Below, piece after piece: positions 25,759 through 39,230 of a stretch of DNA of 64,000 bases. The notes beneath the pieces are model-generated. The model was not told the origin of the DNA, made no database searches, and saw nothing but the letters and a program-made list of their open reading frames with translations. Location: assembly GCF_003075095.1 (NCBI RefSeq), contig NZ_QCZF01000001.1:806001-870000 (forward strand), in the 5' to 3' direction. The stretch is from Blastococcus litoris (GTDB taxonomy: Bacteria; Actinomycetota; Actinomycetes; Mycobacteriales; Geodermatophilaceae). Each line of letters opens with the position of its first letter. Position 1 is the stretch's first letter. Made by a program: the position numbers and the translations under genes.

Positions 25759-28755
25759 TCAGCCAGCCGTGGGCGCGTCCTCCGGCGAGAGCAGGCCCAG
25801 CCGGTGCGCGACGGCCGCGGCCTCGATGCGCCCGGCGACGCCGAGCTTCGCGAGGATCCGGGACACGTGCACGCTGGCGGTCTTGGGGCTGATGAACAGG
25901 GCCGCCGCGATCTGCCCGTTCGAGCGACCTGCGGCGATCAGCTCGAGGATCTCCCGCTCCCGCGGGGTCAGCCCGAACCGGGCCAAGGGATCGTCGGGTT
26001 CCGGGGACGGCGGACCGGAGTCGGTTGCCGGGGCCAGCTCCACCCGCGCCCGCCGGGCGAGCGCCGTCCCCTCGTCGACGAGCGGGTGCGCGCCGATGCG
26101 CCGGGCCAGCTCCACGGACTCCCGCAACGCCTCCGCACCGAGGTCGCGGTCCGCTGCGGACACCGCCTCCGCCGCCACGCGCAGCAGCGCGTAGGACAGC
26201 AGCAGCGGCTCGCCCCGTTCGCGGCAGCTCGCGACCGCCGCCGACCACACGGCCAGCGCGGGTCCGCCGTCCAGACGGGCCAGCTCCGCCCGCACCAGCT
26301 CCCGGTAGACCGCCACGGACGACGTCCCGGTCGGCAGCCCCTCGGCGATCGCCGACAGCGCCGCGGCACCGGCACGGACCTCGTCGGGCACGGGAACGCG
26401 CAGGTCCCGGGCCCGGGTGGCGGCGTCAGCCTCCGTGCGCATGCCGAGCCAGACCAGCGGCCAGGCGTACCGGCCGAGCAACGTGCTGCCACCGGTGAGG
26501 GCGTCCGCGACGACCGCGCGGGCGGTGGCGAGGTCACCGCGCGCCCGGGCCGACTCGGCCCCGACGTAAGCCAGCGGCTGCAGGAACTGGTCGTCGGTCA
26601 CGTCTCCGAGCAGCGTGCGGACCTGCTCGGCGAACGCGGCGGCCTCGGGGTACCGCCCCGCGCCGACGGCGATCTCGGCGCGCACCTCCAGCAGCGTCGC
26701 GGCGAAGATCCCTTCCGGAGCCCCCGCCAGCGCCTCGGCGGCCGCGCGGTCCGCCTCGTCCCACCGCCCCAGGTGGAACAGCGACTCGACGCGGTTGCCC
26801 GTGAGGTAGGCACCGTAGGTGCGGCTCATCCCGACCCGCCCGGCGAGCGCGATGCCCTGCTCGGCGGCGGCCACCGCCGCCGCGGGGTGGCCGGCCAGCT
26901 CCAGCACGTCGGACTGGTTGATGTAGCCGCGGAGCGCGGTCTCGGCGATGCCCAGCTGCTCCGCCCGTTCCAGCCCCGCCCGCAGGGCCTCCAGCGCGGG
27001 GCCGACGTCGCCGACGTAGGCCTGCGCGGTGCCGAGGGTGATCAGCGCGTTGGCCTCCAGCGCCCCCGCGTCGGCCTGCCGGGCGGCGTCCACAGCGGCC
27101 TGCGCCGCCTCCCGCGCGGCCCCCAGGTCCCGCACGTGCGTGAGGCTCGTGGCGCGGCCGGTGAGCAGGGCCGCGCGGATGTGGCTGGGCCCCTCCGCGG
27201 GCAGCGCCCGCAGCGCCGCGTCGACGACGGCGAGCGCGTCGGCGTCCCGGCCGAGGGAGCGCAGCATGAAGGCCCGCCGGTCCAGCAGCTCGGGCAGCCG
27301 CTCCCGCTGGTCACCGTCCCCCAGCAGCTCCACGGCGCGGTCGACGAGGGCCAGCGCGCGCGTCGGCGAGCCCGCCTGGAGCGCGGCCTCGCAGGCCAGC
27401 CGGAGGACGCCGATCTGGTCGGTCCCCGCCCGCTGCTCGGCGTCCTCCACCCGGGGCCAGACCTCCAGCGCCCGTTCGAAGTGGCGTTGCGCCTCCGCGG
27501 GGGCGTAGGCCGCGGCGGCCTGGCGTCCCGCGTCGACCGAGGCGCTCAGCGCCCGGGGCAGGTCCAGCGCGGCGTACCAGTGCAGGGCCAGCTGCGCGGC
27601 CGGCGAGGCGTCCCCGGCCAGGTCCGGCTCGGTCGAGAGCCGCTCGGCGTAGCGGGAGTGCAACCGCAGCTTCTCCCCGGGCAGCAGGTCGTCGTAGACC
27701 GCCTGCCGCAGCAGCGCGTGCCGGTAGGCGTAGCCGGTCCCGGAGTCGTCGACGACCAGGAACTGCCGGTCCACGACCTCGCGCAGGGCGGCGATCAGCA
27801 CGGGCTCGTCGAGCCCGGCCACGGCGGCCAGCAGGCGGTCGGAGACGGAGCGCCCGGCGGCCGACGCCGCGCGCAGCAGCTGCTGCGCGGGGTCGGACAG
27901 GGCGTCGACCCGGGAGAGCAGCACGTCGCGCAGCGACTCGGGTACCTCGCTGAGGGGCTCGCCCACGCGCACGGCGGCAGTGATCTCCTCCACCAGGAAG
28001 GGGTTGCCCTCCGACCGGTCGGTGACCAGGGCCAGCAGCCCCGGGTCCGGCGCGCTGCCGAGGATGGCGCGCAGCAGTGCGGCGACCTCGGGTCCGGTGA
28101 AGCCGCGCAACTGGAGGGTGCGCACCGACGGATCCCGCTCCCAGGCGCGCAGGAACGGGCGCAGCGGGTGCCGCCGGTGCAGCTCGTCGGACCGGAAGGT
28201 CATGAGCAGGCACACCCGAGCGGTGCGCAGCGTGCGCACCAGGAAGGCGAGCAGTTCCGTCGTCGACTGGTCGGCCCAGTGGACGTCCTCGACGACGAGC
28301 AGCAGCGGGGCCCGGCCCGCCACCCGCTCGAGGACGCCGAGCACCAGTTCGAGCAGCTGGCCCGTGCTCGCACCCGCGGTGTGCGAGGACTGCCAGCTGC
28401 CGGGGTCGAGGTCGGGCAGCAGCCGGGACAGCTCGGCGCGCGCGGGGCCCAGCAGCGGTTCCAGGTCGACCGGGCGCGTGGTCCTGGCCAGCGTGCGGAG
28501 GGCCTCGACGAGCGGGACCAGGGGCATGCCGTCGGCGCCGAGCTCCACGCACTGCCCGCGCAGCACGCGGAACCCCTCCCGCTCGGCGGTGGCAGTGGCC
28601 TCGGCGACCAGCCGGCTCTTGCCCATGCCCGCCTCGCCACCGACCAGGACGCACCGCGACGTCCCGCCGGCGACGTCCCCGAGCGTCTCGGTGAGCGCGG
28701 CCAGCTCCTCGTCGCGACCGACGAACACCGGGCTCGTCACCCCGCCGACGACCAT
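25759..28755 (-). CDS. Large ATP-binding LuxR-family (LAL) regulator
   Basis: The 998-residue protein has an AAA-type ATPase module at the N-terminus (GREE-like FVGRDEELAAL; Walker A GEAGMGKS 40-47; Walker B LLLVVEDVHWAD 151-162), a long middle of TPR-like helical repeats (about 380-880) and a C-terminal LuxR helix-turn-helix with LTPREREILELIAAGRSNGQ and IAAALFISPKTASVHVSRIL. LAL proteins are ATP-dependent activators. A long open frame continues upstream, but ATG 28755 gives the expected FVGRDEEL start. The divergent VOC genes are the nearest candidate targets. The ligand is unknown. Confidence 0.92.
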   Translation of the reverse strand: MVVGGVTSPVFVGRDEELAALTETLGDVAGGTSRCVLVGGEAGMGKSRLVAEATATAEREGFRVLRGQCVELGADGMPLVPLVEALRTLARTTRPVDLEPLLGPARAELSRLLPDLDPGSWQSSHTAGASTGQLLELVLGVLERVAGRAPLLLVVEDVHWADQSTTELLAFLVRTLRTARVCLLMTFRSDELHRRHPLRPFLRAWERDPSVRTLQLRGFTGPEVAALLRAILGSAPDPGLLALVTDRSEGNPFLVEEITAAVRVGEPLSEVPESLRDVLLSRVDALSDPAQQLLRAASAAGRSVSDRLLAAVAGLDEPVLIAALREVVDRQFLVVDDSGTGYAYRHALLRQAVYDDLLPGEKLRLHSRYAERLSTEPDLAGDASPAAQLALHWYAALDLPRALSASVDAGRQAAAAYAPAEAQRHFERALEVWPRVEDAEQRAGTDQIGVLRLACEAALQAGSPTRALALVDRAVELLGDGDQRERLPELLDRRAFMLRSLGRDADALAVVDAALRALPAEGPSHIRAALLTGRATSLTHVRDLGAAREAAQAAVDAARQADAGALEANALITLGTAQAYVGDVGPALEALRAGLERAEQLGIAETALRGYINQSDVLELAGHPAAAVAAAEQGIALAGRVGMSRTYGAYLTGNRVESLFHLGRWDEADRAAAEALAGAPEGIFAATLLEVRAEIAVGAGRYPEAAAFAEQVRTLLGDVTDDQFLQPLAYVGAESARARGDLATARAVVADALTGGSTLLGRYAWPLVWLGMRTEADAATRARDLRVPVPDEVRAGAAALSAIAEGLPTGTSSVAVYRELVRAELARLDGGPALAVWSAAVASCRERGEPLLLSYALLRVAAEAVSAADRDLGAEALRESVELARRIGAHPLVDEGTALARRARVELAPATDSGPPSPEPDDPLARFGLTPREREILELIAAGRSNGQIAAALFISPKTASVHVSRILAKLGVAGRIEAAAVAHRLGLLSPEDAPTAG

Positions 28756-28902
28756 CGCCCACCCGCCTCGGTCCCGAGCCCCCGAACGGACTCGGCCGCA
28801 GTGTCCAGCGCGTCGGAGCCGGGCCGCAACGCCCTGGTCCGCGCCGCGTGACCCCGGTCGGTGGGGTGGCAGGACCGGGTGCCCCTGCCCAGGATCGGTC
28901 TC

Positions 28903-29283
28903 GTGACCCCCCGCATCCGGCTGACCGCGCCCGTCCTCGGCACGCCGGACCCACAGGAGCTGGCCCGCTTCTACCAGCGGCTGCTGGACTGGCCGCTCCG
29001 GGACGACGGGCCGGAGTGGGCCACCCTCCGGCCGGAGGACGGCAGCACCGGGCTGTCGTTCCAGCGCGAGCCCGGCCACGTGCCGCCGGTGTGGCCGCCG
29101 GAGCCCGGGACCCAGCAGATGCAGCAGCACCTCGACCTCGAGGTCGACGACCTCGATGCCGCGTCGGCCCTGGCCGAGGCCGCCGGCGCCCGGCTGCTGA
29201 ACACCTACACCGAGCCGCACGAGCAGGTGCGCACCTACGCCGACCCGGCCGGCCACCCGTTCTGCCTGTTCGTCCGCACCTGA
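28903..29283 (+). CDS. VOC-family protein, first of a tandem pair
   Basis: The 126-residue single-module glyoxalase-fold protein has PDPQELARFYQRLLDWPLRD, EWATLRPEDGSTGLSFQREP, the HVPPVWPPEP strand, LDLEVDDLDAASALAEAAGA and the end DPAGHPFCLFVRT. GTG 28903 matches the length of its neighbour; CAGGAT 7 bases upstream may be a -10. The next gene is a diverged copy, so the pair arose by duplication. Likely a small-ligand binding protein or dioxygenase relative; no metal set is confirmed. Confidence 0.82.
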   Translation: MTPRIRLTAPVLGTPDPQELARFYQRLLDWPLRDDGPEWATLRPEDGSTGLSFQREPGHVPPVWPPEPGTQQMQQHLDLEVDDLDAASALAEAAGARLLNTYTEPHEQVRTYADPAGHPFCLFVRT

Positions 29284-29298
29284 CCGAGGAGCCCGTCG

Positions 29299-29670
29299 AT
29301 GGCCCGCTTCACCCTCACCGGCACCGTGCTCGACAGCCCCGACCCGAAGGGCCTGGCGCTCTTCTACCAGCAGCTGCTGGGCTGGCCGTTCGGCACCGAG
29401 GAGCCCGAGTGGGTGACCCTGCGGCCCGCGGACGGGAGCGCCGGGCTCGCGTTCCAGCTGGAGGAGGAGCACGTGCCGCCGGTCTGGCCGGCCGGGGACG
29501 GCGACCCCCGCATGCAGCTGCACCTCGACATCGAGGTCGACGACCTGGAGTCCGCCGTCGACGCTGCCGTGGCCGCCGGTGCCACGGTGGCCGGGTTCCA
29601 GCCGCAGGACGACGTCCGGGTGTGCCTGGATCCCGCCGGCCACCCGTTCTGCCTCTGGGTGGACGCCTGA
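29299..29670 (+). CDS. VOC-family protein, second of a tandem pair
   Basis: The 123-residue protein parallels the upstream gene (PDPKGLALFYQQLLGWPFGT, EWVTLRPADGSAGLAFQLEE, HVPPVWPAGDGDPRM, LDIEVDDLESAVDAAVAAGA, DPAGHPFCLWVDA). AGGAG at 29286-29290 sets the ATG. Co-transcription with the first copy is likely from the 15-base spacing. Confidence 0.85.
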   Translation: MARFTLTGTVLDSPDPKGLALFYQQLLGWPFGTEEPEWVTLRPADGSAGLAFQLEEEHVPPVWPAGDGDPRMQLHLDIEVDDLESAVDAAVAAGATVAGFQPQDDVRVCLDPAGHPFCLWVDA

Positions 29671-29674
29671 AATC

Positions 29675-29699
29675 GGTGGCCCGTCCCGACCGGGCCACC
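29675..29699 (+). terminator. Hairpin terminator after the VOC pair
   Basis: GGTGGCCCG (29675-29683) and CGGGCCACC (29691-29699) form a perfect 9-bp stem with a 7-base loop, four bases after the VOC stop. It abuts TAACCT (29700-29705), the likely -10 of the next gene. Confidence 0.6.
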
Positions 29700-29713
29700 T
29701 AACCTCCGACGAC

Positions 29714-30721
29714 GTGGCCGACCTCCCCGCTCTCCCCGACGGCCTGACCGTCCGCCCCCTCACCGCCGACGACGTGGTGCAGGCCGCGGCGATGCTGGAG
29801 GAGGCGGAGAAGTCCGACGACACCGGCGAGCACTGGAGTCCGGACGACCTCACCGAGTGGTGGGTGAACGACCTCTTCGACCTCGAGCGCGACAGCCTGG
29901 CCGTGACCTCGCCCGACGGCGAGCTCGTGGCCTGGGCCACGGTGCTCGCGCTGCCGGACTTCCGCGACGCCTTCCGCATCACCCTCGAGGCGCGGGTGCA
30001 CCCCGCCTGGCGCGAGCGCGGCATCGGCCGGGCGCTGCTGGCCTGGCAGCTCCAGCGCGGACGCGAGGTGCACGCCGAGCGGCACCCGGAGGCCCCCGCC
30101 GTGCTGGCGGTCGAGGTCTACACGTCGATGCCCGCCCTGGAGGGCCTGGCACGGCGCGCAGGGCTCACCGAGGAGCGCTGGTACTTCGTCATGGAGCGAC
30201 CGCTGACCGACCTGCCCGCCGTCCCGGCGGTGCCGGGGGTCGAGCTCGTCCCGTTCGGCTGGGACCGCGACGAGGAGGTCCGCCGGGCGCACAACGCCGC
30301 GTTCACCGAGCACCACGGGTCCGCGGAGCGGGACCGGGCCACCTGGCAGACGTTGTTCACCGGCCAGCGCGGGTTCCGCCCCGAGCTGTCCTCGCTCGCC
30401 GTGGCCGACGGCGCCGTCGTCGCCTACTCGCTGGCCTACGTGTTCGAGGCCGACACCGCGGCCAACGGCTACGAGACGGTCGACCTCGGCCAGATCGGCG
30501 TCCTGCCGTCGGCCCGGGGCCGCGGTCTGGCCAAGGCCACGATCGCGTCGGTGCTCCACGCCGCGGCCGGCCGCGGTTTCCGCGCGGCCGCCCTCTCCGT
30601 CGACAGCGAGAACGTGACCGGCGCGCTGGCGCTCTACGAGGGCCTGGGCTTCGCGAGGCGCCGGACGCAGATCCAGTGGGCGCTGGAACTCCCTCCGCTG
30701 GGGGCCGACGGCGCTGCGTAG
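29714..30721 (+). CDS. Tandem GNAT acetyltransferase
   Basis: The 335-residue protein carries two GNAT domains. The first (about 1-165) has LEARVHPAWRERGIGRALLA, the second (about 175-325) has VDLGQIGVLPSARGRGLAKA and ALSVDSENVTGALALYEGLG followed by FARRRTQIQW; both retain the R/QxxGxG/A acetyl-CoA loop. Double-GNAT proteins include mycothiol synthase, but its signature context is missing, so only an N- or S-acyltransferase is claimed. GTG 29714 has TAACCT 8 bases upstream. Confidence 0.85.
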   Translation: MADLPALPDGLTVRPLTADDVVQAAAMLEEAEKSDDTGEHWSPDDLTEWWVNDLFDLERDSLAVTSPDGELVAWATVLALPDFRDAFRITLEARVHPAWRERGIGRALLAWQLQRGREVHAERHPEAPAVLAVEVYTSMPALEGLARRAGLTEERWYFVMERPLTDLPAVPAVPGVELVPFGWDRDEEVRRAHNAAFTEHHGSAERDRATWQTLFTGQRGFRPELSSLAVADGAVVAYSLAYVFEADTAANGYETVDLGQIGVLPSARGRGLAKATIASVLHAAAGRGFRAAALSVDSENVTGALALYEGLGFARRRTQIQWALELPPLGADGAA

Positions 30722-30731
30722 GGTGCGGCCC

Positions 30732-31595
30732 ATGGTCAGCGCCGATCACTTCGACCCCGCCCTCGTGGGCCGCGCCCACCGCGCGGTCGACCCCCTGCAC
30801 TCGCAGCTGTACTTCGCGCCCGAGCACGACGAGCACTTCAGCGCGATCGGCCTGCGGCCGGGGCGGATGTCGTACTTCGCCGGCCGGGCCGCGCCCATGG
30901 GTGCGGTCGGCGCGGGCGTGGTGACGGCGACCTTCTTCAACTTCTCGCCGTCCCTGGTCGCGCACATGATCCCGCGCGCCTGGACCCTCGCCTCTCCCGA
31001 GCAGGTGCTCGCCGCCCGGCTGGACGCCGCCCGCGCGTCGCTCACCCGGATGCTCGGCGACGCGGCCGGCTCCGACGAGGTCGTCGAGCTCGGCGGGCTG
31101 CTGCGCGAGGCGTGCGCCGGCCTCACCACCGAGGGGCGTCCGCTCTTCGCCGGGCACGCGGACCTGCCGTGGCCCGAGGAGCCGCTGCTGGCGGTGTGGC
31201 ACGGCGCGACCCTGCTGCGGGAGCACCGCGGCGACGGGCACGTCGCCGTCCTGCTGCACGCCGGGCTCACCGGCCTCGAGGCGCTGATCACCCACTCGGC
31301 CACCGGCCGAGGCTTCACCGAGCCGGCCGCCAAGGCCACCCGTGGCTGGAAGGACGAGGAGTGGGCGGCCGCCTGCTCGGCCCTGGCCGGACGCGGGCTC
31401 CTCGACGACGCAGGGCTGACCGCCGACGGCGAGCAGCTGCGCGCGCACATCGAGGTGCAGACCGACGCCCTGGCCGCCGACCCGTGGTTGTCGCTCGGTG
31501 CGGAGCGGACGGCACGGGTGGTCGAGCTGGGCAAGGGGCTGTCGCGGCGGCTGGTCGAGGCGGGCGCCTTCGGGCAGGGGATCTTCGGTCGCTGA
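30732..31595 (+). CDS. SCO6745-type actinobacterial protein
   Basis: The 287-residue protein looks like the SCO6745 family, small helical actinobacterial proteins of unknown function: RAHRAVDPLHSQLYFAPEHD, GRMSYFAGRAAPMGAVGAGV, VVTATFFNFSPSLVAHMIPR, LAVWHGATLLREHRGDGHVA and ATRGWKDEEWAAACSALAGR are typical blocks. A C-terminal winged-helix-like part (GLTADGEQLRAHIEVQTDAL) resembles MarR relatives. ATG 30732 has TAGGGT 7 bases upstream, so it may be leaderless. Confidence 0.8.
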   Translation: MVSADHFDPALVGRAHRAVDPLHSQLYFAPEHDEHFSAIGLRPGRMSYFAGRAAPMGAVGAGVVTATFFNFSPSLVAHMIPRAWTLASPEQVLAARLDAARASLTRMLGDAAGSDEVVELGGLLREACAGLTTEGRPLFAGHADLPWPEEPLLAVWHGATLLREHRGDGHVAVLLHAGLTGLEALITHSATGRGFTEPAAKATRGWKDEEWAAACSALAGRGLLDDAGLTADGEQLRAHIEVQTDALAADPWLSLGAERTARVVELGKGLSRRLVEAGAFGQGIFGR

Positions 31596-31645
31596 CCGGT
31601 CCGCTGCTGCATAGGGTCTGGCCAGGTCCCAGCACGGGAGGCGCC

Positions 31646-33265
31646 ATGACCGCGACGGAGCGGCAGCAGGGCCAGGTACAGCGCACCGACGTCGAGGCCG
31701 CTTTCCGCGGCAGCGCGACCTACCGGAGCCTGGGGGAGCAGACCCTCAGCCCCGCCGAGGAGCGCTTCGAGAAGGGCCGTCGCACCGTCGGGCTGTTCCT
31801 CGCCCCGGTGGTGACGATCGTGTTCGCGCTGCTGCCGATCGACCTGCCGCGCGACCAGCACCTGCTCGCGGCGATCCTGCTCGGCGTCATCGTCCTGTGG
31901 ATCACCGAGCCGGTGCCGATCCCCGTCGGCGGCCTGATCGGCATCGGGGCGATCGTGGTCCTCGGTGTGGTGCCGGCCGACGACGCGCTCGCGCCGTTCG
32001 GGTCGACGACGGTCTTCACCTTCATCGGTGCGTTCATCCTCGCCATGGCCATGCTGAAGCACGGCCTCGCGCGGCGGTTCGCGATGTTCGTGCTGTCGCT
32101 GACGTGGGTCGGCGCCTCGACGTACCGGGTGGTCATCGCGTTCGGCGCCATCACGGCGCTGCTGTCGGCCTTCGTGTCCAACACGGCCACCGTCGCGATG
32201 CTGCTGCCGACGGCGCTGGGCATCATCGCCGTGATCGCCAAGCTCCTGCAGGACAAGGAACTGGTGAAGCCCGACTTCGACCCGCTGCGCCTGCGGGTCG
32301 GCGTGGCCGTGATGCTGATGCTCGCCTACGGCGCCAGTGTCGGCGGGCTGCTCACCCCCGTCGGCACACCGCCCAACCTGATCGGCCGCGGGCTGATCGA
32401 GGAGGCGACGGGGGAGCGGATCGGCTTCCTCGACTGGATGCTGATGGCCGCGCCCATCTGCGCGCTGATGTTCGTCGCGCTGGCCGCCGTCCTGCTGCTG
32501 CTCAACAAGCCGGAGATCCGGCGCATCGAGGGCGTCAGCGAGTACGTGCAGGCCGAGCGGGCCGAGCTCGGGAAGTTCTCCCAGGCCGAGAAGAACACCC
32601 TGATCGCCTTCACGGTGACCGTCGCGTGCTGGATCTTCCCCGGTGTCATCGCGCTCACCGCCGGCACCGAGTCCGACCTGTACGCGACGATCAGCGACCG
32701 GATGGACGAGGGCGTCATCGCCGTCCTCGGCGCCTCGTTGCTGTTCCTGCTGCCCACCGACTGGAAGGCGCGGGAGTTCACGCTCAACTGGAGCGACGCC
32801 GCCAAGATCGACTGGGGCACGATCCTGCTCTTCGGGACCGGCATCATCTTCGGCTCGCTGCTGGCCAGCACGGGCCTGGCCGAGACGATCGGCGAGGCGT
32901 CGGCGGACTCCCTCGGCCTGACCAGCACCTTCGCCATCACGATCTTCGCGGTGATCCTGGCGATCATCATCAGCGAGACGACGAGCAACACCGCGTCGGC
33001 GGCCGTCGTCGTGCCGATCATCATCCCGGTGGCGATGGCGGCCGGCATCAACCCGTTCGTGCCGGCGCTGGCGGCGACGTTCGCCGCGTCGTTCGGCTTC
33101 ATGCTGCCGGTCTCCACGCCGCAGAACGCCATCGCCTACGGCTCGGGCGTCGTGCCCATCACCAAGATGATCAGGTCCGGCTTCTCGTTCGACGTCCTCG
33201 GCGCCCTGCTCATCGTGGTGCTGCTGCCCGTCATGGTCGACCTGGTGCTCGGTTCGGTCGGCTGA
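31646..33265 (+). CDS. SLC13/DASS-family anion transporter
   Basis: The 539-residue membrane protein belongs to the divalent anion:Na+ symporter family (dicarboxylates, sulfate, phosphate). Two inverted half-repeats each carry the SNT motif (SNTATVAMLLPTALG and SNTASAAVVVPIIIP) and the following TPxN sodium-site turn (TPVGTPPNLIG and VSTPQNAIAYG). About 11-12 hydrophobic spans are present. The ATG follows GGGAGG (31636-31641); TAGGGT at 31612-31617 is a candidate -10 for a short-leader transcript. Substrate not determinable. Confidence 0.9.
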   Translation: MTATERQQGQVQRTDVEAAFRGSATYRSLGEQTLSPAEERFEKGRRTVGLFLAPVVTIVFALLPIDLPRDQHLLAAILLGVIVLWITEPVPIPVGGLIGIGAIVVLGVVPADDALAPFGSTTVFTFIGAFILAMAMLKHGLARRFAMFVLSLTWVGASTYRVVIAFGAITALLSAFVSNTATVAMLLPTALGIIAVIAKLLQDKELVKPDFDPLRLRVGVAVMLMLAYGASVGGLLTPVGTPPNLIGRGLIEEATGERIGFLDWMLMAAPICALMFVALAAVLLLLNKPEIRRIEGVSEYVQAERAELGKFSQAEKNTLIAFTVTVACWIFPGVIALTAGTESDLYATISDRMDEGVIAVLGASLLFLLPTDWKAREFTLNWSDAAKIDWGTILLFGTGIIFGSLLASTGLAETIGEASADSLGLTSTFAITIFAVILAIIISETTSNTASAAVVVPIIIPVAMAAGINPFVPALAATFAASFGFMLPVSTPQNAIAYGSGVVPITKMIRSGFSFDVLGALLIVVLLPVMVDLVLGSVG

Positions 33266-33330
33266 CCGCCGTCGGCCGTTCACCCGCTGGGGCGACGCGC
33301 GCTGGACACGCCGTGACACCATGGACGACG

Positions 33331-33350
33331 GCCTCCGGACGGACGGAGGC
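33331..33350 (+). promoter_or_regulatory. Upstream hairpin in the corA leader
   Basis: GCCTCCG (33331-33337) and CGGAGGC (33344-33350) form a perfect 7-bp stem with a 6-base loop. It lies between the SLC13 stop and the leader ORF. It could end the SLC13 transcript or be part of the corA leader. Confidence 0.45.
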
Positions 33351-33372
33351 GCCGACAGGGAGGGGTGAGCGC

Positions 33373-33420
33373 ATGCGCAGCGAACCTCCCAGTACCGCTC
33401 TCGAGGTCCTCCCCGCCTGA
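33373..33420 (+). CDS. Leader peptide upstream of corA (15 codons)
   Basis: ATG 33373 opens a 15-codon frame, MRSEPPSTALEVLPA, ending TGA. The strong GGGAGGGG (33358-33365) 7 bases upstream is a better ribosome site than that of many real genes here. Its early Glu-Pro-Pro run and position ahead of a Mg2+ transporter recall the proline-rich leader peptides of Salmonella mgtA and the leader ORF of corA. The frame's last five codons lie in the left arm of a hairpin (33403-33441), so its translation would change the leader fold. Being so short, it could still be chance. Confidence 0.5.
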   Translation: MRSEPPSTALEVLPA

Positions 33421-33480
33421 TCGGCGGCGCGCGAGGACCTCCCGGTGTCCCTCGTCGCCCTGCAGTCCTCCCGGGAGTCC
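33403..33480 (+). promoter_or_regulatory. Mutually exclusive RNA stems before corA
   Basis: Stem 1: GAGGTCCTC (33403-33411) with GAGGACCTC (33433-33441), enclosing CCGCC/GGCGG (33413-33417/33423-33427) with the leader stop TGA in the loop. Stem 2: 33435-33445 with 33471-33480, pairing CTCCCGG to CCGGGAG plus GGA to TCC around a bulged C, which hides the GGGAG (33473-33477) ahead of ATG 33484. The two share 33435-33441, so only one can form at a time. This is the architecture of translation-coupled attenuation. Confidence 0.5.
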
Positions 33481-33483
33481 GTC

Positions 33484-34614
33484 ATGACCGAGCGCCGGCT
33501 CGCGCCCCTGAGCGCCCTGACCACGCTGACCCGCCGACCCGTGCGGGTCGACCAGCGCGCCCCCGCGCCGCTGGAGGCCGCGCCGGAGCGGCGGTCGCGG
33601 ATCGTGGACAACGCCGTCTACTCCGAGGGACGGCGCGTGGCGACGCCGGCGAGCGCGGCCGAGAGCCGGGAGGAGCTCGCGGCGGGGGAGGACCGCCTGG
33701 TGTGGCTGGGGCTCTACCGGCCCGAGCCCCAGGAGCTCGGTGAGCTGGCGGAGCTGTACGACCTCCCCGAGCTGGCGGTCGAGGATGCGATCAAGGCCCA
33801 CCAGCGCCCGAAGTTCGAGCGCTACGGCGGCACGCTGTTCGTCGTCCTCAAGGCCGCCCGGTACGTGGACGCCGCCGAGGAGGTCGAGTTCGGCGAGCTG
33901 CACCTGTTCCTCGGCGCGGACTTCGCGATCACCGTGCGGCACAGCGAGTCGCCGGACCTCTCGCGGGTACGGCGCCGGCTGGAGAGCGAGCCGGCGCTGC
34001 TGGCCAAGGGCAGCGAGGCGGTGCTGTACGCGACCCTGGACGCCGTCGTCGACGGGTACCGCCCGGTGGTCGACGGGCTGGCCACCGACATCGACGAGAT
34101 CGAGACCGAGGTCTTCCGCGGTGACCCCGGGGTCTCCCGGCGCATCTACGAGCTCTCGCAGGAGGTGCTCGAGTTCCAGCGGGCCGCCGCCCCGCTGACC
34201 GGGATCCTCGCCGCCATCACCGCCGGTTTCGACAAGTACGGCGTGGACGAGGAGCTGCGCGGCTACCTGCGCGACGTGGCCGACCACGTCACCCAGGTGA
34301 TCGAGCGGGTGGAGGCCTTCCGGCTGCAGCTGCGCGACATCCTCACCGTCAACGCCACCCTGGTGGCGCAGCGGCAGAACGAGGAGATCCGCGAGCTGAC
34401 CGAGGCGTCGATCGCGCAGGGCGAGGAGGTCAAGAAGATCTCCGCGTGGGCGGCCATCCTGTTCGCCCCGACGCTGGTCGGGACCGTCTACGGCATGAAC
34501 TTCGACGCCATGCCCGAGCTGCACTGGTCGTGGGGCTATCCGCTCGCGCTGCTGCTGATGGCCGGCGTGAGCCTGACGCTCTACGTGGTCTTCAAGCGCC
34601 GCGACTGGATCTGA
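33484..34614 (+). CDS. corA: CorA-family magnesium/cobalt transporter
   Basis: The 376-residue protein has the CorA plan: a large cytoplasmic N-domain (about 1-300, with EDAIKAHQRPKFERYGGTLF and the long helix region VIERVEAFRLQLRDILTVNA), then two C-terminal spans. The signature YGMNF (after TLVGT) closes the first span and caps the pore; the second span ends in VVFKRRDWI. ATG 33484 follows GGGAG (33473-33477). GTG 33445 is an in-frame alternative with GAGGA before it, which would add 13 residues. A structured leader with a short ORF precedes it. Confidence 0.93.
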   Translation: MTERRLAPLSALTTLTRRPVRVDQRAPAPLEAAPERRSRIVDNAVYSEGRRVATPASAAESREELAAGEDRLVWLGLYRPEPQELGELAELYDLPELAVEDAIKAHQRPKFERYGGTLFVVLKAARYVDAAEEVEFGELHLFLGADFAITVRHSESPDLSRVRRRLESEPALLAKGSEAVLYATLDAVVDGYRPVVDGLATDIDEIETEVFRGDPGVSRRIYELSQEVLEFQRAAAPLTGILAAITAGFDKYGVDEELRGYLRDVADHVTQVIERVEAFRLQLRDILTVNATLVAQRQNEEIRELTEASIAQGEEVKKISAWAAILFAPTLVGTVYGMNFDAMPELHWSWGYPLALLLMAGVSLTLYVVFKRRDWI

Positions 34615-34621
34615 GCGGCAG

Positions 34622-34655
34622 GGAGGGGCGGCCCCCCGCAGGGTGCCGCCCCTCC
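34622..34655. terminator. Bidirectional terminator between corA and the MFS gene
   Basis: GGAGGGGCGGC (34622-34632) and GCCGCCCCTCC (34645-34655) form a perfect 11-bp stem with a 12-base loop. It lies between convergent stops at 34614 and 34664. Confidence 0.75.
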
Positions 34656-34663
34656 ACCGTCCG

Positions 34664-36154
34664 TCAGACCGCCATGGCGGCCTCGGCGGGCAGGTCGTCC
34701 TTGCGCGCCGAGATCAGCACGGCCCCGATGAGCAGGGCGAGGGCGAGGAAACCGGCGCCCCACACGAAGGCCACGTGGTATCCGTGCACGAGGGCCGCGC
34801 CCGGTCCCGCGGCCGGCTCGTCGGCCAGCCGGCCGGTGACCGCGGAGGCGAAGAAGGTGTTCAGCAGCGCCAGCCCCAGCGACCCGCCGACCTGCTGGGC
34901 GGTGTTGAGCGTCGCCGAGGCGATGCCCGCGTCGTGGGCCTCGACGCCGACCAGGGCGGTGCTCGAGGCCGGCACGAACACCATCGCCATGCCGAAGCTG
35001 AGGGCGAGCTCGGCCGGCAGCACGTCGGCGAGGTAGGCGCTCGACTCGCCGATCCTGGTCAGCCACAGCATCCCGAAGACGGCGAGGACCAGGCCACCGA
35101 CGATCAGCGGACGGGGCCCGACCCGGGGCAGCAGCTGGGAGACCAGCACGGCGCCCAGGATGATCCCCCCGCTGAACGGCAGGAACGCGAAGCCCGACTC
35201 CAGCGGGGTGTACCCGAGGGTGTCCTGGAAGTAGAAGGTCAGGAACAGGAACATCGCGAACAGCCCCGCACCCACCAGCAGGAACGTCAGGTAGGACCCG
35301 CCGCGGTTGCGGTCGAGGACGACGCGCAGCGGCAGGAGCGGGGAGCCGGCCCGGCGCTCCGACAGGACGAACCCGACCAGCAGGACGGCGGCCGCGGCGA
35401 GCAGCGTCAGCGTGACCGGGTCGCTCCACCCGACGCCGGCCTCGGCGGCCTTGCTGAAGCCGTAGACGAGGCTGACGAGGCCGGCGGTCGAGAGCAGCAC
35501 ACCGGGGATGTCGTACCGCCGGTCGCCCGCGGCCCGGCTCTCGGTGATCAGTGCGACGGCGAACCCGGCCGCCACGACCGCGATGGGGACGTTGACGCCG
35601 AGCGTCCACCGCCACGAGGCGTACTCGGTGAGGACGCCGCCGAGGATGAGCCCGATGGCTGCGCCACCGCCGGAGATGGCACCGAAGACCCCGAAGGCGC
35701 GGGCGCGCTCCTTCGGGTCGGTGAACGTCACGGCCAGCAGGGACAACGCCGCCGGCGCGAGCAGGGCCGCGAACCCACCCTGCAGGGCGCGGGCGGCGAA
35801 CAGCAGCTCCTGGTTCGGCGCGAGGCCGCCGAGGGCGGAGGCGCCCGCGAAGCCCAGCAGCCCGACCAGGAAGGTGCGCTTGCGGCCCATGAAGTCGGCG
35901 ATGCGCCCGCCCAGGAGCAGGAGGCCGCCGAAGGCGAGCGTGTAGGCGGTGACCACCCACTGGATGTCGGCGGTGCTGATGCCGAGGTCCGCTCCGGCCT
36001 CGGGGATGGCGATGTTCACGATGGACACGTCGAGCACGACCATCAGCTGGGCGACGGCGATGACCGCCAGCGCCAGCCAGCGTCTCGGGTCGGGCCCGGA
36101 CGGAGGTGCCTCGGGTTCGGCGTCGGGTGGGGTGGCCAGGCTGTTCGAGGGCAT
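34664..36154 (-). CDS. MFS multidrug exporter, DHA2 (EmrB/QacA) type
   Basis: The 496-residue protein has about 14 spans. The early block QLMVVLDVSIVNIAIPEAGA (the D1 motif of 14-span drug:H+ antiporters), then VTAYTLAFGGLLLLGGRIAD followed by FMGRKR (motif A), and a mid-protein GAISGGGAAIGLILGGVLTE (motif C of exporters) identify a DHA2 efflux pump. GAAGGA sits 8 bases before ATG 36154. It lies 134 bases downstream of a TetR gene in the same direction, so it is probably the repressor's target. Substrate unknown. Confidence 0.92.
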   Translation of the reverse strand: MPSNSLATPPDAEPEAPPSGPDPRRWLALAVIAVAQLMVVLDVSIVNIAIPEAGADLGISTADIQWVVTAYTLAFGGLLLLGGRIADFMGRKRTFLVGLLGFAGASALGGLAPNQELLFAARALQGGFAALLAPAALSLLAVTFTDPKERARAFGVFGAISGGGAAIGLILGGVLTEYASWRWTLGVNVPIAVVAAGFAVALITESRAAGDRRYDIPGVLLSTAGLVSLVYGFSKAAEAGVGWSDPVTLTLLAAAAVLLVGFVLSERRAGSPLLPLRVVLDRNRGGSYLTFLLVGAGLFAMFLFLTFYFQDTLGYTPLESGFAFLPFSGGIILGAVLVSQLLPRVGPRPLIVGGLVLAVFGMLWLTRIGESSAYLADVLPAELALSFGMAMVFVPASSTALVGVEAHDAGIASATLNTAQQVGGSLGLALLNTFFASAVTGRLADEPAAGPGAALVHGYHVAFVWGAGFLALALLIGAVLISARKDDLPAEAAMAV

Positions 36155-36288
36155 GGCGGAGCCGTCCTTCCTGCGCAGCGCGCAGCGGATGAGGGGATCG
36201 GGCGTGCGGGACCACGCGGCCGGCGGCGGTGCGCGGTCGCGGGAGCGGTGCGGAGGGTCGGCGGGTCAGTGCCGACGAGGAGGAACTG

Positions 36289-36867
36289 TCAGGTCACCGG
36301 ATGGGCGAGTCCTGCGCCGGCCCAGCGCAGGCAGTCGCGCACGAGCTGCTGGAAGTGCTCGAAGGGGTCATCGGGGTCCCAGGCCTCGATGGCCGTGGTG
36401 AAGGCGGCGAAGGCGGTGTTGAGCACCAGCGCCGTCCGCAGGGGGTCGCCGTCCTGGGCGCGGCGGCTCACCCACTCCTCGAGATCGGGTCCGTAGCCGT
36501 CACAGGTGTCCCGCGACGAGTCGCAGAGCTCCGGTGACTGCTCGAACAGCCGCTTCTGCAGCGGCAGCCGCTCGGCGAGCAGCTGCGTGAGGGCGAGGGC
36601 GACGTCGGTCAACGCCTCCCACAGCGGCTGGCCGTCCCGGGGGTCGGCCAGGATGTCGCGCCACCGCTGCCGCTCCTCCGGGTCGAGGTCGAAGATCACG
36701 GCCTCTTTGCTGGCGAAGTAGCTGAAGAAGGTGGTGCGCGAGACGCCGGCTCCTGCGGCGATGTCCTCGACGCTCACGGCGTCGAAACCGCGCTCGCTGA
36801 TCAGTCGCAGCGCGGTGGAGCGGATGGTGCGCCAGGCCTCGAGCTTCTTCCGCTCCCGGAGCCCCAT
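36289..36867 (-). CDS. TetR-family repressor of the MFS pump
   Basis: The 192-residue protein has an N-terminal TetR helix-turn-helix: MGLRERKKLEAWRTIRSTAL, ISERGFDAVSVEDIAAGAGV and SRTTFFSYFASKEAVI. The C-terminal ligand domain contains ALTDVALALTQLLAERLPLQ. ATG 36867 gives the classic MGLRERKK start; a GTG at 36921 would add 18 residues and lies close to a predicted transcription start. The pump gene follows, and a palindrome lies upstream at 36941-36959, consistent with autoregulation. Confidence 0.9.
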   Translation of the reverse strand: MGLRERKKLEAWRTIRSTALRLISERGFDAVSVEDIAAGAGVSRTTFFSYFASKEAVIFDLDPEERQRWRDILADPRDGQPLWEALTDVALALTQLLAERLPLQKRLFEQSPELCDSSRDTCDGYGPDLEEWVSRRAQDGDPLRTALVLNTAFAAFTTAIEAWDPDDPFEHFQQLVRDCLRWAGAGLAHPVT

Positions 36868-36940
36868 GACCGCGCCCACGGGACAGCTGGAGAGGCCTGC
36901 TGCCGCCGCGGACTTGATCACGGGATGAAGGTAGACCCAA

Positions 36941-36959
36941 ACCTGTACCCAGTACAAGT
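36941..36959. promoter_or_regulatory. Probable TetR operator with overlapping promoter
   Basis: ACCTGTAC (36941-36948) and GTACAAGT (36952-36959) are inverted arms with one mismatch and a 3-base spacer. On the minus strand TTGTAC (36957-36952) and TACCTT (36933-36928), 18 bases apart, can serve as -35 and -10, so a bound repressor would block RNA polymerase. ACAAGTT recurs at 36970-36976, 16 bases from its first copy. Confidence 0.55.
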
Positions 36960-37032
36960 TCTTACTGCGACAAGTTTTCCTGTTCCTCCGGAGGGCTGAA
37001 CGCCCCGGGCGGCGGTGGTCCAGGATCGGTCC

Positions 37033-37446
37033 GTGACCGAGCGCTGGGAGGGATCCCCCGGCGTCGTCCGGCTGCCCGGTGGCGCCTTCGTCCGCGGACG
37101 CCGGCTCGGCGGTGCACCGACGCCCGCGGACTTCGCGCTCGTGCTGGGGGAGGGGCCGGCTCCGGTGTGGTCGTTCCGCAGGATCGTCTGGCCGGACTTC
37201 CGGCTGCCCGGCGACACGGGCGACGCGCTCGACGCGTTGCACGAGGTCAGGACACGTGCGCAGGCGGGGGAGCGGGTCGAGGTCTCCTGCCGCGGAGGTG
37301 TCGGCCGCACCGGGACGGCGCTGGCCGCGCTCGCGGTGCTCGACGGGATGTCCGCGTCCGACGCCGTCCACTGGGTGCGTGCGACATACCACCGCCGGGC
37401 GGTCGAGACCCCCTGGCAGCGGCGCTGGCTGCGGCACGTGCACTGA
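37033..37446 (+). CDS. Protein-tyrosine-phosphatase-like protein
   Basis: The 137-residue protein carries the Cys-x5-Arg loop CRGGVGRTGTA (C86 to R92), the active-site signature of cysteine phosphatases, and an upstream WPDFRLP whose Asp (about 55) could be the general acid. It is short for a full tyrosine phosphatase and resembles the compact dual-specificity type. GTG 37033 is preceded by CAGGAT 6 bases upstream, a likely -10 for leaderless initiation. It lies just before ssrA and is divergent from the TetR gene. Confidence 0.8.
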   Translation: MTERWEGSPGVVRLPGGAFVRGRRLGGAPTPADFALVLGEGPAPVWSFRRIVWPDFRLPGDTGDALDALHEVRTRAQAGERVEVSCRGGVGRTGTALAALAVLDGMSASDAVHWVRATYHRRAVETPWQRRWLRHVH

Positions 37447-37463
37447 GGACACCCCCGTCCGGG

Positions 37464-37494
37464 GGAACACCCGGGGCCCGCCTGCCGTTAGGCT
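37464..37494 (+). promoter_or_regulatory. ssrA promoter with SigR/SigH-like elements
   Basis: GGAAC (37464-37468), an 18-base spacer and GTT (37487-37489) match the promoter type read by the redox/heat sigma factors SigR and SigH (GGAAT-N18-GTT in Streptomyces). TAGGCT (37489-37494) could be a housekeeping -10 in the same place. Transcription would start about 12 bases before the mature tmRNA. Confidence 0.5.
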
Positions 37495-37511
37495 GTCTGC
37501 ACAACTACACA

Positions 37512-37884
37512 GGGGGTGAATGGTCTCGACTTCGGTCGGGTGACCAGGGGAAGCGAGCCGAGGAAGCCAACGATGAGCTCGTTAACCATCCGTTGGAAAA
37601 CACACAAGCGCCGATTCCAATCAGCGCGACTTCGCTCTCGCTGCCTGATAGCAGCTAGACGAGTCTGTCAGCCCGGGTTCGTCATCGGCCCGGATCCTGG
37701 CATCAGCTAGATGACTCACCGCACGTGCCGGTCGCGGGCGCGCGTGGGACACCCAACAGCGACTGGGCCCGTCACGTCGACTTGTCCGCATGATCGACGG
37801 GGTCGAGCAGAGGCAACGCGGACTGCGCTCGGAGAAGCCCTGGTGATGCGTCGAAGGACGCGGGTTCGATTCCCGCCACCTCCA
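37512..37884 (+). ncRNA. ssrA: tmRNA (transfer-messenger RNA)
   Basis: tmRNA rescues ribosomes stalled on broken messages and tags the product for proteolysis. The 5' end GGGGGTGAATGGTCTCGACT is the hallmark. GGGGGTG (37512-37518) pairs with CACCTCC (37877-37883), a 7-bp acceptor stem with one G-U, and GGTTCGATTCC gives the T loop. The discriminator A is 37884; CCA is not encoded. The tag frame begins with resume codon GCC at 37610 and reads ADSNQRDFALAA then TGA at 37646-37648, with TAG following. Length 373 nt before CCA addition. Small frames here are spurious. Confidence 0.96.
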
Positions 37885-37898
37885 CTCCTGTGTTCCGG

Positions 37899-37945
37899 CG
37901 AGAGGCCGGGACCGCCCGCCACGCGTGGGCGGTCCCGGCCTCTCG
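37899..37945 (+). terminator. Strong terminator after ssrA
   Basis: A perfect 19-bp inverted repeat (37899-37917 with 37927-37945) and 9-base loop lies 14 bases after the tmRNA end and is followed by TCGTT. It can also act for the minus strand. Confidence 0.85.
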
Positions 37946-38084
37946 TCGTTCCAGGAACGCCGCGGCGCCCGCCGTGTCCGGCCACCGCCGCAGCAGCAAC
38001 CCCTCGCTCCGGAGCCGGCCGACCCGTGACGTCGGCCAGTCGCGACGCCGCGACCATGATCACAGCGCACCGTAGCGAGGCGGA

Positions 38085-39188
38085 TCAGGCGGGATCCAGG
38101 TCCAGCACTCCCGAGCGCAGGGTGTCCAGCGAGCGATGCATCCCGACCGTCACCGCTCCCAGGGCGAAGAAGCCCTCGTCGTCGGCGACGTCGGAGGTGC
38201 GCAGCAGCGTCGTCAGCCGCGAGAGCGCCTCCTCGGCTTCGCCGAGGGCCGACTCCCGCCGGTCGCTGCCGTCCTCGGCCACCGCCGGGTACGGGGTGCA
38301 GACGACGCGGGAGAGGCTGTCGAGCGCGTCCGCCAGCACCCACCCGGTCCCGCCGTCGATGCGGTCGATGCCACGGCGGTGCGGCTGGAACTCGACCACC
38401 AGCGTGGTGAGGTCGTCGACCAGGACGGCGACCCGGTCCAGTGCACGGGACTGCTCGCGGATGCTCGCCGCGGTCTCACCCCAGCGCCGGGCACGGGGAT
38501 TGGCCCGGCGGGCGCGCTCGACCACGGCTTCGGCCGCCCGCATCCTGTCCAGCGCGATCTCCAGGTCGCGGCCGCGCCGGGCCCACTCCCCGGCGGTGGG
38601 CAGCTCGCCCCGCCGCAGCCCGGACGCGATGTCGTGGAGGTGCCCGGCGAGGGCGGCCCGCGCGGTGTCGATCCGGCGCTGCGCGGAGGTCAGCTGCAGC
38701 GGGGGGAACAGCAGGGTGGTGACCAGGACGCCGATCGCCGCGCCCAGCAGGGTGAGACCCGCGTAGGCCACTGCGTACCGGGCGGGGTCCTCGGCCCCGA
38801 CGGTGAGCATCAGGACCGCCGCGAAGCTCACCCAGCTGGCGTGCTCCTTGAGGACCGGCCACTGCTCGACGCCGACGGCCAGGGCGACGATCAGCGCGAT
38901 GGTGAGGGCGCCGGGGAGCCACAGGGTCAGCTGGTGGACCGCCACGGCCAGGCCGAACCCCAGGAGGATGGCCACGACGGTCCGCCAGGCCGCCGCCGCG
39001 GAGTCGGCGACCGTGGGGTGCACGGCGATCACCGCGCCGAGCGGGGCGTAGTACGCGTACCCCGCGAGCGGGGCCGGCAGGGCGATCGCGACCTGCCACG
39101 CCAGAGCCGCCGCCACCGCGGCCCGCACGCCGCGCTGCACCCACGGCTCCTGCAGCAGTTCCCTCGTCGCCCTCACCCCTCCGAGCAT
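38085..39188 (-). CDS. FUSC/aromatic-acid-exporter-type membrane protein
   Basis: The 367-residue protein has five or six N-terminal hydrophobic spans (AAVAAALAWQVAIALPAPLA, LGAVIAVHP with WRTVVAILLGFGLAVAVHQL, LTIALIVALAVGVEQWPVLK, VSFAAVLMLTVGAED, LTLLGAAIGVLVTTLLFPPL) and a long C-terminal soluble helical domain (about 175-360). This matches proteins of the FUSC/ArAE group, of which some export aromatic carboxylic acids. Function here is not known. No ribosome site is strong at ATG 39188. Confidence 0.8.
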   Translation of the reverse strand: MLGGVRATRELLQEPWVQRGVRAAVAAALAWQVAIALPAPLAGYAYYAPLGAVIAVHPTVADSAAAAWRTVVAILLGFGLAVAVHQLTLWLPGALTIALIVALAVGVEQWPVLKEHASWVSFAAVLMLTVGAEDPARYAVAYAGLTLLGAAIGVLVTTLLFPPLQLTSAQRRIDTARAALAGHLHDIASGLRRGELPTAGEWARRGRDLEIALDRMRAAEAVVERARRANPRARRWGETAASIREQSRALDRVAVLVDDLTTLVVEFQPHRRGIDRIDGGTGWVLADALDSLSRVVCTPYPAVAEDGSDRRESALGEAEEALSRLTTLLRTSDVADDEGFFALGAVTVGMHRSLDTLRSGVLDLDPA

Positions 39189-39230
39189 GCGGCGGACCCG
39201 CGCGACGACGTCACGCGGGTCCGCCCACGG

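Follow-up and report, generated by a model that had tools for sequence, protein, structure and literature searches.

Upstream of the magnesium transporter gene corA in the soil actinobacterium Blastococcus litoris and its relatives lies a conserved short leader open reading frame (ORF) with a Glu-Pro-Pro-Ser (EPPS) core, which is found in closely similar form before other, unrelated magnesium transporter genes and is probably an unreported ribosome-based switch responding to magnesium shortage. A small number of enterobacterial leaders are known in which the translating ribosome senses Mg2+. Based on the comparative sequence evidence below, we favour, with somewhat better than even confidence, a reading of the region as an attenuator that acts on corA in cis through a leader peptide, in which low Mg2+ would switch uptake on. 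The sequence analysed, hereafter the window, was a stretch of 64,000 nt from B. litoris (assembly GCF_003075095.1, contig NZ_QCZF01000001.1, positions 806,001-870,000 of the forward strand).

The corA locus

Direct reading of the gap upstream of corA agreed with the original prediction for its length, the leader Shine-Dalgarno (SD) sequence, the 15-codon ORF and the coordinates of two stems (Table 1). The downstream gene was identified as CorA through PF01544 (E 1.3e-60) and TIGR00383 (199 bits, slightly below the 200.75 cutoff). ATG 33484 was assigned as its start rather than GTG 33445, which had been raised as an alternative and was discarded because relatives carry indels between the two, up to ATG 33484, whose lengths are not multiples of three and which break the frame. 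The upstream alignment retained ATG 33484 at all 15 genus corA loci, and an SD-like site preceded corA at each of the 85 family loci kept.

Table 1. Features of the corA upstream region, in window coordinates.
Feature	Position	Strand	Size	Basis
DASS-family anion symporter gene, 5' neighbour of the gap	stop 33263-33265			TIGR00785
Intergenic gap before corA	33266-33483		218 nt	Direct reading
Promoter-like block CACCAT-GGACGACGGCC (CACCATGGACGACGGCC)	33317-33333	+		Conserved in the genus alignment and most family sequences
Leader SD GGGAGGGG	33358-33365	+		Window sequence; SD-like sequence precedes the leader in family rows
Leader ORF MRSEPPSTALEVLPA	33373-33420	+	15 codons + stop	Counterpart at 85/87 family corA loci
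Leader start ATG and stop TGA	33373; 33418-33420	+		Direct reading
Core codons GAA CCT CCC AGT (Glu4-Pro5-Pro6-Ser7)	33382-33393	+		Synonymous Glu/Pro variation; AGT bias
Stem 1, 5' arm, within leader codons 11-13	33403-33411	+		Covariation
Stem 1, 3' arm	33433-33441	+		Covariation
Possible stem 2, 5' arm, overlapping the stem 1 3' arm	33435-33445	+		Complementarity in the window; covariation unsupportive
Possible stem 2, 3' arm, containing the corA SD GGGAG (33473-33477)	33471-33480	+		Pairing without covariation support
corA, CorA-type Mg2+ transporter, start ATG 33484	33484-34614	+		PF01544, TIGR00383

A search of positions 28000-40000 against Rfam returned no family relevant to the leader, and the M-box riboswitch (RF00380) was absent from the matches up to E 10 over the same range; neither NCBIfam nor Rfam supplied a name for the leader. 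Positions 32800-35000 yielded neither a sigma-70-like promoter nor an intrinsic terminator, a result that is weakly informative for an actinobacterium. Further downstream, a tmRNA gene was located at 37512-37887 (RF00023, 147 bits), with a small phosphatase-like ORF (37015-37446, PF00102) just upstream of it.

The promoter-like block at the 5' side of the gap is likely a -10 element by its sequence. In L103 and L105 it reads TATCCTGGACGACGG and TACCCTGGACGACGG, and in two Luteimicrobium loci TATCCT-GGACGACGG and TACCCT-GGACGACGG align with it; the resemblance of these versions to a -10 element would place the transcript start near 33328. A second 15-codon ORF, from ATG 33321, had been noted in the original prediction and was rejected as a gene, with its start inside the conserved block and its frame not retained in relatives. 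The hairpin described at 33331-33350 does exist in the window, but its equivalents carried no family-wide structure signal, being no more structured than shuffles (mean z -0.15) among the 61 of 75 family sequences in which the block was located, some of these finds being spurious.

Conservation of the leader in the genus and the family

The genus set comprised 16 whole genomes, 15 of which carried a close corA orthologue and the sixteenth only a paralogue of 44% identity. The family loci consisted of these 15 together with 72 (L031-L102) obtained by a genome contig scan from the best 80 of 423 relatives, whose records are labelled Blastococcus, Geodermatophilus, Modestobacter, Klenkia, Goekera and Trujillonella, along with a few MAGs and one Bacillus. 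Ten duplicate family loci were dropped before the structure counts, leaving 75 distinct sequences.

The leader ORF with its Glu-Pro-Pro codons proved to be conserved as originally proposed, being present at 85 of the 87 family corA loci (relatives taken as the best 80 of 423); the two loci without it, L053 and L100, lie on contigs with just 89 and 73 nt of sequence ahead of corA. The core codons varied synonymously (GAA/GAG for Glu, CCT/CCG/CCC and CCC/CCG for the two Pro), and the conservation was not produced by a detection pattern that fixes the amino acids, because no complete family locus was left out. Across the 15 genus loci the frame was retained at lengths of 9 to 19 codons, with extra codons ahead of the core in six leaders and an insertion of one codon in L008; the leader of L004 has an early stop, yet it possesses its own complementary arms at the same place. 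The distance from leader stop to corA start was 63 nt in the window and 58-186 nt in the family. Second corA paralogues carried an EPPS leader in none of 14 cases, with an unrelated Glu-Pro peptide 478 nt upstream at the paralogue locus L025.

A REP-like hairpin repeat (CTCGCANGCTCGCGGCGGG core), present in 15 of the 16 genus genomes at 0 to 46 copies per genome, was encountered between the leader stop and the stem 1 3' arm, exact in L005 and L008 and degenerate in L004 and L012. Positioned within the stem 1 loop region, it would leave the stem intact.

RNA structure around the leader stop

The leader arm and the downstream arm were aligned separately by sequence, so that pairing was not built into the stem test. 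Stem 1, which in the window has nine perfect pairs and the leader stop inside its loop, was paired in 89.0% of cells over the 75 family sequences, compared with at most 63.4% in slid versions. Compensatory cells numbered 50, whereas 1000 partner shuffles averaged 15.8 and never exceeded 29, which upholds the stem as originally drawn around the leader stop. Pair 31-38 was seen as T-A, C-G and G-C, and seven or eight of the eight stem 1 pairs form in 60 of the 75 sequences. On the corA tree, five stem 1 pairs switched Watson-Crick state at least 11 times in total, too few to judge pairs individually.

Stem 2, which has one bulge in the window, had been proposed as a helix closing the corA ribosome site. 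As a conserved helix it was not supported: 74.9% of its cells were paired vs 74.7% in partner shuffles, and its nine compensatory cells lay within the shuffle range (mean 6.7, maximum 13). The alignment of relatives recovered the ORF, its Glu-Pro-Pro codons and covariation in stem 1 but not covariation in stem 2. In 56 of the 75 sequences the stem 2 arm outperformed its shuffled versions in pairing with the SD region, and 85.9% of cells pair in a Blastococcus-like subset of 25 sequences. In a coarse duplex test of the leader end against the downstream segment, a sequence's own segment surpassed shuffled ones in 66 of 75 cases and those of other species in 40 of 75, the latter count not distinguishing own from swapped segments.

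Folding was computed for free RNA and for a ribosome placed at the Pro-Pro codons or at the stop. The probability that the corA SD is unpaired was 0.31, 0.20 and 0.25, respectively (n = 75), and accessibility was lower with the ribosome at the stop than at Pro-Pro in 29 of the 75 sequences. In the shuffled-leader control, the family (n = 75) gave 0.291 for free RNA, 0.260 at the stop (p 0.17) and 0.247 for shuffled leaders (p 0.02), and other corA loci (n = 19) gave 0.266, 0.154 (p 0.011) and 0.238 (p 0.42), respectively. These modelled values suggest a weak trend in the direction of the predicted corA SD switch, short of the clear change in accessibility that the prediction had entailed.

Among leaders outside the family, a hairpin at the stop was stronger than 95% of shuffles for 18 of 32 (mean z -1.83) and for 2 of 25 controls at transporter stop codons; five 8-codon leaders with Gln had no hairpin at the stop. 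Within the family, the corresponding hairpin exceeded 95% of shuffles in 5 of 75 sequences when 35 nt downstream were included (control, 5 of 74) and, modestly, in 17 of 75 with 80 nt (control, 5 of 74). For the 14 loci of group f20, the overlapping hairpin 2 had 2.4 predicted pairs in free RNA, 5.6 with the ribosome at Pro-Pro and 5.6 at the stop, a gain upon leader occupancy that does not discriminate a stalled from a terminating ribosome. The spacer contained more C than G in 75 of 75 sequences, family spacers alone being counted.

Leaders before distant corA genes and other transporter genes

The pattern RTG-N6-GAR-CCN-CCN-AGT matched ten times in the 16 genus genomes, nine times at the corA leader; seven genus genomes, including those with extra codons before the core, had no match. 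When combined with an SD, it returned 28 matches in 296 class genomes, of which 16 stood before corA (the window's own included), four before mgtE and eight before neither, vs one match for the reversed-pattern control. A phylum search of 396 genomes, which overlap the class set, gave seven matches, of which two stood at corA, two at mgtE and two at unrelated sites, the seventh being from another class; the reversed pattern gave two.

A corA orthologue at E 1e-90 or better was present in 75 of the 296 class genomes, the window's included. Sixty-eight of 80 distant corA matches were examined, the 12 left out comprising ten sequences not retrieved and two that lay, respectively, at the edge and near the start of a contig. 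Leaders with Pro-Pro-Ser or Pro-Pro-Gly were found at 24 of these 68 loci, and by the filter applied the remaining 44 were without one. Glu preceded the prolines in 19 of the 24 and Gln in five (MSQPPST, MGQPPST), and the codon at the Ser position was AGT, except for GGT in one leader. Examples are MRSEPPSDSRS... in Luteimicrobium, MCGEPPSHTTDES in Humibacillus and MSGEPPSSTRPAS in Cellulomonas alba. Two of three Nocardioides loci and the Knoellia locus carried a short leader of another kind, in which AGT falls within D-S-R. Short GAC/GAT AGT CGC (Asp-Ser-Arg) leaders, possibly a third leader type, lie near corA in L104, L106, L110 and L160, and in L106 and L110 their frame extends across the corA start.

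For canonical mgtE, 30 of 40 rows were examined, and an MRSEPPS leader was detected at four of the 30 loci, in four genomes. Pfam confirmed MgtE for two of these (PF01769, PF03448, CBS), and the remaining two proteins are 88% and 79% identical to one of the Pfam-checked ones. Another leader type, MRxRS....D-x-(E/D)-P, in which an acidic residue and one further residue are followed by Glu-Pro or Asp-Pro, precedes mgtE at five of six loci of groups f20 g60 and g23 (L254, L256, L257, L261 and L267).

The match in another class, VQSEPPSHRSGLPSTAARPGGSPAPG (genome G629, L278/L281), is located 149 nt upstream of a 449-aa MgtE_N/CBS gene that is followed by an Nramp-family gene. The same peptide thus precedes corA, mgtE and one MgtE-domain/Nramp pair, which strengthens the link to Mg2+ drawn in the original prediction. 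Among 30 MgtE_N loci, with gene starts set crudely, no EPPS leader was found. The NrmT paper ties such genes to M-boxes and Mg2+, and it also reports that one NrmT adjoining an MgtE-domain gene transported manganese, not magnesium. The MgtE-domain/Nramp pair is therefore weaker evidence for a third Mg2+ target, being a single case and given the manganese transport by that NrmT.

A near-invariant AGT serine codon

The codon after Glu-Pro-Pro was AGT in 73 of the 75 distinct family sequences (the exceptions being one CAT and one GGT) and in 31 of 32 other leaders. This codon is rare elsewhere, accounting for 16 of 1319 Ser codons in the corA genes of the same family and for 1 of 89 when four clear window genes were counted. 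GAA and CCT were likewise enriched, with 41 of 127 leader Glu codons vs 52 of 2733 in corA, and 37 of 294 leader Pro codons vs 23 of 1598, respectively. Judging from these counts, AGT is under a codon-level constraint that the peptide alone does not explain. No pairing partner was identified for the AGT codon (33391-33393 and its counterparts).

Proposed mechanism and alternative explanations

In the attenuator that we favour, a ribosome would begin the 15-codon leader, and elongation would be fragile at codons 4-7, where a very short nascent chain with an acidic residue and two prolines meets the rare AGT. With sufficient Mg2+, the ribosome would reach the TGA at 33418-33420, cover the stem 1 5' arm and keep the stem open; in low Mg2+, drop-off or stalling at the core would allow stem 1 to form. 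The state of stem 1 would then set corA expression, with low Mg2+ turning uptake on. The geometry suits attenuation, as the 5' arm would be masked by a ribosome that has reached the stop but left exposed by one departing at codons 5-6. The output step may be masking of the corA ribosome site, Rho-dependent termination or a combination of the two: the original prediction had the freed stem 1 3' arm closing the corA SD, and the output could instead be Rho-dependent because the folding trend was weak and stem 2 was without covariation.

The region has the conserved short ORF with its own ribosome site and the stem overlapping the ORF that characterise an attenuator, as well as the downstream Mg2+ transporter gene and the Glu-Pro-Pro at codons 4-6 (Gln variants in 5 of 24 distant leaders) of the mgtL, corL and mgtQ type. 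We infer that the leader is translated, that Mg2+ is its signal, that sensing occurs through ribosomes dropping off or stalling at (E/Q)PP-Ser, and that control has the sign given above. Ribosome destabilisation as the means of sensing would follow by analogy with MgtL and MgtQ, as described in excerpts of PMC11282234 and PMC8092293. A purely acidic sensor is disfavoured because five of the 24 distant corA leaders carry Gln for Glu, and these sequences point to Pro-Pro-Ser being no less important than the acidic residue.

The retention of Pro-Pro where Gln replaces Glu, together with the almost invariant AGT, would also fit a polyproline attenuator whose signal is not Mg2+ itself but EF-P activity, charged tRNA-Pro or slow AGU decoding. 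In such an attenuator a stall at Pro-Pro-Ser would form stem 1, and the choice of transporter targets would reflect Mg2+-coupled physiology; in Salmonella, mgtL and mgtP are responsive to EF-P as well as proline according to excerpts of PMC6460261. We rate this as unlikely, although worth keeping in view, since the targets are Mg2+-linked transporter genes of different families, which fit an Mg2+ signal better, and Glu is retained by all 85 family leaders that the search detected and by 19 of the 24 distant leaders.

Much less probable is an element in which base pairing alone acts, through CCTCC with the leader's GGAGG and through stem 1, and the short ORF is incidental. Such pairing could occur in many leaders and AGT is fixed at the nucleotide level, but CCGCCC or CCCCCC in many leaders breaks the pairing while Pro-Pro is kept, and the leaders vary by whole codons and retain the SD and the start codon. 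Constitutive translational coupling, in which the leader merely loads ribosomes near corA and senses nothing, would draw on the proximity of leader stop and corA start, but we consider it the least credible since that distance varies and in most cases exceeds what plain coupling would allow, and the EPPS/AGT core and its reuse before mgtE would be left unexplained.

Relation to known systems and significance

Control of the kind set out for the favoured attenuator has been demonstrated by experiment for the enterobacterial leaders mgtL, corL and mgtQ, according to excerpts of PMC11282234, PMC11552253 and PMC8092293. By analogy, the Blastococcus leader may work like these, as leader, motif and target genes are of a shared kind. 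As excerpted, mgtQ of Salmonella mgtCBRU (PMC8092293) likewise is a short ORF before an Mg2+ transporter gene, with acidic residues, alternative stem-loops that overlap the ORF and ribosome destabilisation as the sensing step, which is proposed here by analogy. It differs in having 8 codons, in lying inside the operon and in a ribosome-site stem that was tested by mutation, whereas the Blastococcus leader has an EPPS core with a fixed AGT and a ribosome-site stem without covariation support. The corL leader of Escherichia coli and Salmonella corA is, in the excerpted text of PMC11552253, also an upstream ORF before corA, the translation of which is inversely related to corA expression, but its output is Rho-dependent termination, and neither its peptide nor its RNA was seen to resemble the Blastococcus leader in sequence. 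The mgtL leader of mgtA shares early acidic-proline codons (EPDP, vs EPP here) and differs in its P-type ATPase target, in its RNA and, as far as excerpts of PMC11282234 and PMC6460261 go, in a motif not tied to one rare codon. The M-box (ykoK) is similarly an RNA element that acts in cis and recurs upstream of corA, mgtE and Nramp-related genes, but its sensor is an aptamer and, in the excerpted parts of PMC4072509 and PMC12810186, it functions without a leader peptide.

Searches for three forms of the leader peptide in the full text of open-access papers, preprints excluded, gave no match, and the leader was undescribed in the open-access literature on actinobacterial corA/mgtE leaders, ribosome destabilisation and attenuation, as covered by titles and abstract openings.

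A broader proposal, to which we give even chances, is that Actinomycetota make wide use of (E/Q)-P-P-Ser with a near-obligatory AGU, usually ending in a hairpin loop, as an Mg2+ sensor. On this view the peptide has been joined to no fewer than three kinds of transporter (CorA, MgtE and MgtE-domain/NrmT-like pairs) and its sensing depends on one synonymous codon, which would make it a ribosome-based counterpart of the M-box. If this is true, ribosome stability would be a general gauge of Mg2+, read through a different, actinobacterial peptide before several kinds of transporter. The leader would also offer a sequence signature by which Mg2+ transporters could be found, in the way that the M-box served for NrmT, and the role of a single synonymous codon would become directly testable.
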